This document shows, one piece after another, positions 4,377 through 7,236 of a stretch of DNA of 64,000 bases; position 1 is the first letter of the stretch, and each line of letters begins with the position of its first letter. A program made the translations under genes and the position numbers. The notes beneath the pieces are model-generated. The model was given only the letters and a program-made list of their open reading frames with translations. It ran no database searches and had not been told where the DNA came from. The DNA is from Mesorhizobium sp. M1C.F.Ca.ET.210.01.1.1. GTDB taxonomy: Bacteria > Pseudomonadota > Alphaproteobacteria > Rhizobiales > Rhizobiaceae. The stretch covers positions 124,001-188,000 of the forward strand of contig NZ_SRUU01000012.1 of the NCBI RefSeq assembly GCF_004791585.1. The letters are read 5' to 3'.

Positions 4377-5489
4377 ATGTATGTCGCGGTGAAAGGCGGC
4401 GAAGCCGCAATCGCCAACGCCCATCGCCTGCTTGCCGATCGCCGGCGCGGCGACCGCTCGGTGCCGGCGCTGCGCCTCGACCAGATCGTCGAGCAACTGG
4501 CGCTCGGCGTCGACAGGGTGATGAGCGAAGGCTCGCTCTACGATCGCGAGCTTGCCGCTTTAGCCGTCGTCCAGGCGCGCGGCGACATGATCGAGGCGAT
4601 CTTCCTGGTGCGCGCCTATCGCACCACCTTGCCGCGCTTCGGCTATACCAGCCCGGTCGACACCGGCGCCATGCAGGTCGAGCGGCGCGTATCCGCCGCC
4701 TACAAGGACCTGCCCGGCGGCCAGGTGCTCGGCCCGACCTTCGACTACACGCATCGCCTGCTCGATCCGGAGCTTGCCGCCGGCGCCGATGTCGAGGCGC
4801 CCGCGCAGCGCCCGGTCGAAGCCGAGGCGATGCCGAGCGTCTCCTCGATCCTCGCCCATGAGGGCCTGATCGAAGCCGACGGCGACATGCCGCTCGACCA
4901 TGTGCCCGGCGACATCACGCGCGAGCCGCTGCAGTTCCCGATGGCGCGCGACATCCGCCTGCAAGCGCTGTCGCGCGGCGACGAAGGTTTTCTGCTGGCG
5001 CTCGGCTATTCGACGCAGCGCGGCTATGCCCGCAACCATCCTTTCGCCGGCGAGGTGCGCATCGGCGAGGTCGAGCTCGAGCTGGACATACCGGAACTGC
5101 CGTTTGCCGTGCCGATCGGTTCCATCCGCGTCACCGAGTGCCAGATGGTCAACCAGTTCAAGGGCTCGGCCAAGGCGCCGCCGCAATTCACCCGCGGCTA
5201 CGGCCTCGTCTTCGGTCAGAGCGAGCGCAAGGCGATGGCCATGGCGCTATGCGACCGGGCGCTGCGCGCGAGCGAGCTCGGCGAGGATGTCGTCGCCGCC
5301 GCGCAGGACGAGGAGTTCGTCATCTCGCACTCCGACAATGTTCAGGCGACCGGTTTCGTCGAGCATCTGAAGCTGCCGCACTATGTCGACTTCCAGGCCG
5401 AGCTCGATCTGGTCCGCCGCATGCGTGCCGAATACGAAGCGCGGGAGAGTTCCGACACGGCAGAAGAGAAGAGGGAGGCCGCGGAATGA
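4377..5489 (+). CDS. phnI: C-P lyase core subunit PhnI (nucleosidase-like)
   Basis: A 370-residue PhnI. In the pathway it displaces adenine from ATP to form the ribose triphosphonate intermediate, together with PhnG, PhnH and PhnL. It starts MYVAVKGGEAAI, a conserved beginning. The C-terminal half holds the typical HSDNVQATGFVEHLKLPHYVD region. The last 30 residues are acidic and low complexity (EARESSDTAEEKREAAE), a little longer than usual. The stop overlaps phnJ by ATGA. Confidence 0.93.
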   Translation: MYVAVKGGEAAIANAHRLLADRRRGDRSVPALRLDQIVEQLALGVDRVMSEGSLYDRELAALAVVQARGDMIEAIFLVRAYRTTLPRFGYTSPVDTGAMQVERRVSAAYKDLPGGQVLGPTFDYTHRLLDPELAAGADVEAPAQRPVEAEAMPSVSSILAHEGLIEADGDMPLDHVPGDITREPLQFPMARDIRLQALSRGDEGFLLALGYSTQRGYARNHPFAGEVRIGEVELELDIPELPFAVPIGSIRVTECQMVNQFKGSAKAPPQFTRGYGLVFGQSERKAMAMALCDRALRASELGEDVVAAAQDEEFVISHSDNVQATGFVEHLKLPHYVDFQAELDLVRRMRAEYEARESSDTAEEKREAAE

Positions 5490-6463
5490 ACGCGCAACCG
5501 ACAGAGATCGCCACCTACAACTTCGCCTATCTTGACGAGCAGACGAAGCGGATGATCCGCCGGGCAATCCTCAAGGGCATCGCCATTCCAGGCTACCAGG
5601 TGCCCTTCGCCTCTCGCGAGATGCCGATGCCCTATGGCTGGGGCACCGGCGGCGTACAGGTCACCGCCTCGATCATCGGCCCGGATGACGTGCTGAAGGT
5701 CATCGACCAGGGCGCCGACGACACCACCAACGCCGTCTCGATCCGCGCCTTCTTCAAGAAGGTCGCCAATGTCGCCGTCACCACCGAGACGGCTGCGGCG
5801 ACGATCATCCAGACCCGCCACCGCATCCCAGAGCATCCGCTGACGGCGCGACAGGTGCTGGTCTTCCAGGTGCCGATCCCCGAGCCGCTGCGCTTCCTCG
5901 AGCCGCGCGAGACCGAGACCCGCAAGATGCATGCTCTCGAGGAATACGGCCTCATGCATGTGAAGCTCTATGAGGACATCGCCAGGCACGGCCGCATCGC
6001 CACCACCTACGCTTATCCGGTCAAGGTCGAGGGCCGCTACGTGATGGATCCGTCGCCGACGCCGAAATTCGACAATCCGAAGATGCATCGTTCGCCGGCC
6101 TTGCAACTGTTCGGTGCCGGCCGCGAAAAGCGCATCTACGCCGTGCCGCCTTTCACCGACGTCGTCAGCCTCGATTTCGAGGATCACCCGTTCGAGGTGC
6201 AGACCTTCGACCAGCCCTGCGCGCTCTGCGCCGCCGAGAATGTCTATCTCGACGAGGTCATCCTCGATGATCATGGCGGCCACATGTTCGTCTGCTCCGA
6301 CACTGATCATTGCGAGAAGCGGCGCGCCGACCCTACCTCCCCCTTGTGGGGAGGTCGCGCCGAAGGCGCGGGTGGGGGTAGCCTGGCGACGCCCCCTACA
6401 ACCCCCACCCCGGCGCTGCGCGCCGACCCTCCTCGCAAGGGGGAGGGTAAGGAGGCCGAATGA
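5486..6463 (+). CDS. phnJ: C-P lyase radical-SAM subunit PhnJ with repeat-encoded C-terminal tail
   Basis: PhnJ cleaves the C-P bond by radical S-adenosylmethionine chemistry. All expected residues are present: Cys245, Cys248, Cys270 and Cys276, with the same spacing as the four key cysteines of E. coli PhnJ (241, 244, 266, 272), and Gly36, equivalent to the E. coli radical glycine 32. The conserved protein ends near residue 281, the usual full length. From about residue 282 to 325 the frame runs through a palindromic repeat (6331-6449) and stops in the ATGA overlap with phnK. The tail is rich in Gly, Pro and Arg and is unlike PhnJ elsewhere. Activity is probably kept because the core is whole. 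Confidence 0.92.
   Translation: MNAQPTEIATYNFAYLDEQTKRMIRRAILKGIAIPGYQVPFASREMPMPYGWGTGGVQVTASIIGPDDVLKVIDQGADDTTNAVSIRAFFKKVANVAVTTETAAATIIQTRHRIPEHPLTARQVLVFQVPIPEPLRFLEPRETETRKMHALEEYGLMHVKLYEDIARHGRIATTYAYPVKVEGRYVMDPSPTPKFDNPKMHRSPALQLFGAGREKRIYAVPPFTDVVSLDFEDHPFEVQTFDQPCALCAAENVYLDEVILDDHGGHMFVCSDTDHCEKRRADPTSPLWGGRAEGAGGGSLATPPTTPTPALRADPPRKGEGKEAE
6331..6449. repeat. Palindromic repeat inserted in frame at the 3' end of phnJ
   Basis: The arms (about 6331-6380 and 6401-6449) are reverse complements with a few mismatches. They contain CTCCCCCTTGTGGGGAGG-type inner hairpins and outer GGTGGGGGT/ACCCCCACC blocks. The repeat has no stop in the phnJ frame. It ends just before AAGGAGG at 6449-6455, the ribosome site of phnK. 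Related G/C hairpin words recur at 13892-14089 and 16421-16481. Confidence 0.8.
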
Positions 6464-7236
6464 CCGACGAACCGCTGCTGCGCGTCTCGGCACTTTCCAA
6501 ATTCTACGGCTCGCGCGTCGGTTGCGAGAATGTCTCGTTCGACCTCTGGCCGGGCGAGGTGCTGGCGGTGGTCGGTGAATCGGGCTCGGGCAAGACGACG
6601 CTGCTCAACTGCCTGTCGACCAGGCTGCTGCCGTCCTCCGGCACGGCAAGCTACCGCATGCGTGACGGCCAGTGGCGCGAGCTCTACCGCATGAGCGAGG
6701 CCGAACGCCGCTTCCTGATGCGCACGGACTGGGGGTTCGTCCACCAGAACCCGGCGGACGGGCTGCGCATGACGGTGTCGGCCGGCGCCAATGTCGGCGA
6801 GCGGCTAATGGCGGTCGGCGACCGCCACTACGGTAGGATCCGCGCCACCGCGGTCGACTGGCTGTCACGGGTCGAGATCGACGAGGACCGCATCGACGAC
6901 GAGCCGCGCGCCTTTTCCGGCGGCATGCGCCAGCGCCTGCAGATCGCCCGCAACCTAGTGACCGGGCCGCGGCTGGTGTTCATGGACGAGCCGACAGGCG
7001 GCCTGGACGTTTCGGTGCAGGCGCGTCTGCTCGATCTGCTGCGCGGGCTGGTCACCGATCTCGGCCTCGCCGCTATCGTCGTCACCCACGACCTCGCCGT
7101 GGCGCGGCTCTTGTCGCAGCGCATGATGGTGATGAAGGACGGCCGTGTCGTCGAAAGCGGTCTCACCGACCGCGTGCTCGACGATCCGCGCGCGCCTTAC
7201 ACGCAGCTTCTCGTTTCTTCGATCCTGCAGGTTTGA
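6460..7236 (+). CDS. phnK: C-P lyase ATP-binding subunit PhnK
   Basis: A 258-residue ABC-type ATPase that docks on the C-P lyase core through PhnJ rather than energising transport. Walker A GESGSGKTT is near residue 36, the signature FSGGMRQRLQIARN near residue 150, and Walker B LVFMDEPTGGLD near residue 172. The ATG overlaps the phnJ stop and has a strong AAGGAGG site just downstream of the repeat. Length is as in other PhnK proteins. Confidence 0.92.
   Translation: MTDEPLLRVSALSKFYGSRVGCENVSFDLWPGEVLAVVGESGSGKTTLLNCLSTRLLPSSGTASYRMRDGQWRELYRMSEAERRFLMRTDWGFVHQNPADGLRMTVSAGANVGERLMAVGDRHYGRIRATAVDWLSRVEIDEDRIDDEPRAFSGGMRQRLQIARNLVTGPRLVFMDEPTGGLDVSVQARLLDLLRGLVTDLGLAAIVVTHDLAVARLLSQRMMVMKDGRVVESGLTDRVLDDPRAPYTQLLVSSILQV

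Follow-up and report, generated by a model that had tools for sequence, protein, structure and literature searches.

Palindromic elements that lie in frame are known best from bacteria with an obligate intracellular life (Rickettsia, Wolbachia and Coxiella), and the REP/RIME-type repeats of rhizobia are multicopy palindromes that lie mainly between genes. The accessible parts of two papers describe the Rickettsia palindromic elements (RPEs) as sequences of about 105-150 bp with terminal inverted repeats, capable of forming stem-loops and found both in frame within conserved protein genes and between genes (PMC2229807; PMC10969869). In Coxiella, an in-frame QMITE2 element in enhC presumably gives the C-terminal 33 residues of the protein, according to the available part of the source (PMC5896051). 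Protein-coding palindromic repeats are also reported from genes of another alphaproteobacterium, Wolbachia.

Here we describe a palindromic element in phnJ, a C-P lyase subunit gene, within a 64,000-nt stretch of the genome of Mesorhizobium sp. M1C.F.Ca.ET.210.01.1.1 (the window). Its size, inverted repeats and in-frame position support the likeness to the Rickettsia elements that the earlier note had drawn, and by analogy it would work like the RPEs and QMITE2, to which it is likened by description and not by sequence. Host and element both differ from those of QMITE2 in enhC, and the end of phnJ overlaps the next gene. The Wolbachia repeats, likened by description alone, come from an endosymbiont, while the REP/RIME-type repeats, also compared by description, share the multicopy palindromic character but differ in that the phnJ copy lies within a reading frame. 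What is new, and what separates this locus from the RPEs, is the host (a soil genus), the replacement of a conserved native tail and the alternation of both states between close species at one site. Among the titles listed in searches of open-access literature, none describes in-frame palindromic elements for Mesorhizobium, which is weak evidence of absence with most subscription papers outside that scope. In a soil genus of which many genomes can be compared, and whose sites hold an element in one species but the native sequence in the next, it becomes testable whether such insertions are neutral passengers or a source of material for proteins.

A palindromic element at the end of phnJ

The product of phnJ matches the PhnJ profile PF06007 over residues 10-281 (489.9 bits), and its four C-terminal-domain cysteines (C245, C248, C270 and C276) are invariant in a 45-row alignment, which places it in this family. 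Following C276, the last conserved cysteine, are EKRR, two further codons, the element, three codons and the stop (Table 1). Variation in the EKRR codons falls nearly all at third positions. The element is 121 nt long, lies in frame, encodes residues 283-322 and sits where the native GHxG tail would be; its exact ends were placed from the alignment and from the copy in UvrD. The earlier note was therefore right that a palindromic repeat provides the PhnJ C-terminus in frame, amounting to about 40 residues of a 325-aa frame that stays open to the ATGA overlap with phnK, and right that the repeat reaches the ribosome-binding region of phnK, as AAGGAGG spans its 3' edge and is separated from the phnK ATG by 4 bases. 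The limits it gave to the element (6331-6449) are better drawn as in Table 1.

Table 1. Positions of phnJ, phnK and the palindromic element within the window
Feature	Position	Strand	Basis
phnJ, C-P lyase subunit	5486-6463	+	325 aa, frame without internal stop
Last native phnJ codons ahead of the element (EKRR and two more)	6314-6331	+	EKRR common to native relatives
Palindromic element, CCTACC...GGTAAGG	~6332-6452	.	arms, fold, shared junctions in 27 genomes (26 aligned), family copies
Left outer arm	6336-6354	+	inverted-repeat pairing
Left inner arm	6357-6379	+	inverted-repeat pairing
Right inner arm	6401-6423	+	inverted-repeat pairing
Right outer arm	6428-6446	+	inverted-repeat pairing
AAGGAGG, likely phnK ribosome-binding site	6449-6455	+	sequence
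phnK, ABC ATPase	6460-7236	+	Pfam; ATGA overlap with phnJ end

The outer arms are 89% complementary across 19 nt and the inner arms 74% across 23 nt. The predicted fold has an energy of -94.4 kcal/mol, against a mean of -71.2 for dinucleotide shuffles (z -5.69), and none of 200 shuffles was as low, so arms and fold are well beyond chance. A search of the same genome with a 161-nt query returned 55 match rows at E<=10, a count that includes the element itself, its reverse strand and many short pieces. Three other near-full-length copies (C109:128367, C219:23116 and C197:122817) share 75-80% identity with it; a genome search for the repeat had been proposed in the earlier note. With a length of about 121 nt, the element falls within the 100-150 bp expected of an RPE-like palindrome, and with three near-full-length and many partial copies it belongs to a multicopy family; its terminal inverted repeats are also those of a MITE. 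No target-site duplication was noticed by eye at the phnJ junctions, where the missing native segment leaves no clean empty site for one. Rfam returned only sub-threshold matches to the element, which were taken as chance (whalefall-1, 20.7 bits against a threshold of 37; Acido-Lenti-1, 15.7 against 37).

The native PhnJ tail and its replacement

Searching 146 genomes of the genus gave matches in 135, and setting aside G051, G070 and G120 for their weak best matches (E 5e-11 to 9e-4) left 132 phnJ loci, one per genome. The element occupies the same phnJ site with the same junctions in 27 of these, about a fifth, and is absent from 105. It is thus not peculiar to a single strain. This recurrence also refutes a sequencing or assembly artefact or a chance palindrome, to which we give next to no credence. 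The N beside a G-run in one phnJ element (L057, from G052) and a long polyproline run in the UvrD frame of G003 (L427) do suggest that such hairpins may upset assemblies, but the recurrence of the element at one position in 27 genomes, four of them single-contig (G047, G076, G077 and G099), and a fold far beyond shuffles count against an artefact.

In the 105 loci without the element, a number that includes L133, which holds an N, and L142, which has an odd tail, PhnJ runs 17-33 residues past the last cluster cysteine, and 27 residues in 71 of them; a typical tail is EKRRADGHRGHLAPETHLASEKMEPAQ. The GHxG motif is present in 100 of these 105 native rows versus none of the 27 element rows, and the looser pattern G[HQR]xG in 102. 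Native genes end in ATGA in 102 of the 105 and in GTGA in two, while the frame of L133 is disturbed by its N. Among the best 80 named relatives, PhnJ tails without the element measure 13-33 residues, GHxG occurs in 76 and an ATGA end in 78, and one of the 80, Mesorhizobium sp. M7A.F.Ca.US.008.03.1.1 (L307), carries the element. GHxG was also found in eight of the 11 more distant PhnJ relatives read. Across 70 native tails of length 27, nucleotide diversity in the codons of GHRGHLAPE is.019,.046 and.333 at positions 1, 2 and 3, respectively. The native motif is conserved as protein, and the element-encoded part is not.

These comparisons indicate that the element replaced a conserved native tail of about 50 nt, that this involved no read-through of a stop near residue 281 and that the ATGA overlap predates it. 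The earlier note had put the normal end of PhnJ near that residue, which does not hold for the genus or for the order, and had the repeat replacing a stop, where ATGA is already the usual end of native genes. The phnJ alignment that it called for did reveal the element at one site in related Mesorhizobium, though not natives ending near 281. It had also named an equally long conserved tail in relatives lacking the repeat as grounds for rejection; the relatives' tails are conserved, but shorter.

The PhnJ tail of L142 (G015) differs from the others and the DNA past its stop is unlike phnK, so the order of the phn genes may differ there. A scan of viral contigs found no relatives of PhnJ.

The reading frame through the element and constraint on its sequence

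Although the compared stretch is 134, 140 or 143 nt long, 25 of 26 readable copies keep the same phase into phnK. The exception, L046, is frameshifted and meets a stop at the element's own end, shortly ahead of phnK. The N-containing copy L057 was excluded from the readable copies, the codon counts and the DNA alignment (26 aligned), and L046 was also excluded from the codon counts, for which 25 genomes remain. The element is open in the phnJ frame in 25 of 26 copies, in the next sense frame in all 26 and in the third in none, compared with 50% for composition shuffles; with two of the three sense frames open anyway, openness alone is no proof of selection. In the 25 genomes, mean diversity at codon positions 1, 2 and 3 is.014,.016 and.212 in the PhnJ core,.046,.067 and.035 in the arms and.40,.34 and.49 in the hypervariable loop. 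The frame is kept but the amino acids are not conserved, and the element peptide therefore looks like a passenger.

The closest solved chains (4xb6_D and 7z15_D) align to PhnJ residues 8-279 only, so neither informs on the tail. An AlphaFold2 model from 45 rows is weak overall (mean pLDDT 60), and residues ~290-325 fall below a pLDDT of 50 (block means 34-36) and lack secondary structure. This is compatible with disorder without proving it, and the 40-residue extension encoded by the element is probably disordered.

Retention of the frame in 25 of 26 readable copies of differing length, and the place of PhnJ as catalytic subunit in a conserved enzyme, could speak for a co-opted functional tail that modulates C-P lyase assembly. 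We consider this improbable, since arm codon positions 1 and 2 are more variable than position 3, the loop is hypervariable and only 27 of 132 loci have the element. In addition, the accessible part of a structural study of the E. coli enzyme places PhnK on the central insertion domain of PhnJ (residues 129-169), lists Glu149, Tyr158, Asp226, Asp228 and Asp229 as PhnJ contacts to PhnK, and assigns the cluster cysteines to a C-terminal domain spanning 235-281 (PMC9947105). Given this binding site and the lack of amino-acid conservation in the element-encoded part, the role in PhnK docking that the earlier note had envisaged for the tail finds no support.

Third-position diversity in the arms (.035) is low compared with synonymous sites of the last 60 core codons (.178), which suggests either that the nucleotides themselves are constrained or that the arms are homogenised with other copies. 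A pure passenger is thus insufficient, and one of these two must be added. The low variability of the arms, the very stable fold (z -5.69) and the position of AAGGAGG at the element's edge would all suit an RNA hairpin that acts between phnJ and phnK on mRNA stability, ribosome pausing or phnK initiation, with the peptide incidental. We regard such a hairpin as unlikely, although less so than a functional tail. The share of paired cells is 96.6% versus 96.5% in shuffles, and pairs changed on both sides number 2 versus 0.9 (72 of 500 shuffles as high), so across the 26 aligned copies compensatory changes do not rise above the control and a constraint on RNA structure lacks support. Moreover, RNAalifold found both sides changed in none of 35 pairs, one outer-stem pair is broken in eight of 26 rows and 105 of 132 phnJ loci in the genus do without the element.

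The account that we favour, and judge from the sequence comparisons to be probable, is that a short palindrome of MITE/REP-like kind, from a family with many copies in Mesorhizobium, has been swapped for some 50 nt of the native end of phnJ and extends PhnJ by 40 residues that are probably disordered. The peptide would be tolerated as a passenger, the site being a permissive one, and its frame would be maintained for coupled translation across the overlap, since it runs into the phnK start.

Spread of the elements through the genus and in other proteins

To follow the element through the genus, states were mapped to a 90-genome rpoB tree (27 with the element, 61 native and two without a phnJ state). 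This required 20 state changes, 13 of them forced by starred branches, compared with a mean of 23.3 when labels were shuffled (27 of 500 shuffles gave as few). The phnJ tree required 21 changes (28 of 500 shuffles as low), with one element row, L052, scored as native and hence 26 element rows in place of 27. A single gain in one clade finds no support in either tree. The presence of the element is scattered, with labels weakly clustered, and simple vertical inheritance does not explain clustering only slightly above that of shuffled labels, a point against the favoured account.

Loop divergence between copies rises with rpoB distance (Mantel r 0.31, p 0.0005, 25 rows), which shows that inheritance within lineages accounts for at least some of the copies, not all being new, and that part of the set is old. 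No correlation with rpoB distance was found for arm divergence (Mantel r 0.016, p 0.42). A local recombination tract was sought in three ways, each with a negative result. Linkage of the element state to flanking variants did not rise close to the element (without L142 and six deep rows, L157-L162), flank divergence between pairs of different state showed no significant excess (p 0.24, for pairs up to 3.5% rpoB difference), and the last residue was common with the nearest native relative in 12 of 25 genomes versus 9.3 expected (p 0.16, seven genomes left out). Switching between native and element tails may proceed by short-tract recombination or by repeated turnover of the element.

Like the RPEs, these elements are read in frame within conserved genes that are unrelated to one another: the phnJ family is also found in uvrD, and further families occur in uvrD, where they are palindromic, and in ftsY, where they presumably are. 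In UvrD, the site lies between helicase motifs, flanked by DEYQDTN and CVGDDDQS, and was readable in 56 of 57 loci, of which seven type 1 loci were picked by peptide match and the other 50 comprised the 30 best matches and 20 chosen regions; owing to this selective choice, the type counts are not frequencies. By hand-written peptide patterns, three element families were assigned to 28 of the 56 loci (type 1 in eight, type 2 in 12 and type 3 in eight), one type 1 locus also has type 4, type 4 occurs alone and without an obvious palindrome in 17, and 11 fit no type. Inverted arms are visible in the DNA of one example each of types 1-3, and the type 1 insert is present in at least eight of the 146 genomes searched. 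In FtsY, element-type motifs were recognised, by peptide only, in the acidic N-terminal linker of 14 of 27 genomes read (30 loci fetched). A broader interpretation, which we put forward tentatively and as the less probable outcome, is that palindromic elements are interchangeable in-frame cassettes that repeatedly recolonise permissive sites (the PhnJ tail, the UvrD loop and the FtsY linker) in a soil genus, where native and element alleles stand side by side across species and a mobile DNA family would thereby rewrite parts of housekeeping proteins.

The UvrD locus of the window's genome (L387, G000:C197:122556-123296) was compared with those of 55 further genomes and its FtsY locus (L464, G000:C76:18542-19591) with those of 26. 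Two genomes counted as without the FtsY motif, G060 and G102, have near variants of it, and the linker of G087 apparently holds up to three repeat-family copies. Elsewhere in the window's genome, a long open frame without a Pfam match contains an in-frame element (L170, G000:C110:116709-116816), and at least 27 genomes show a match within open frames 1122-1251 aa long, possibly in different genes.
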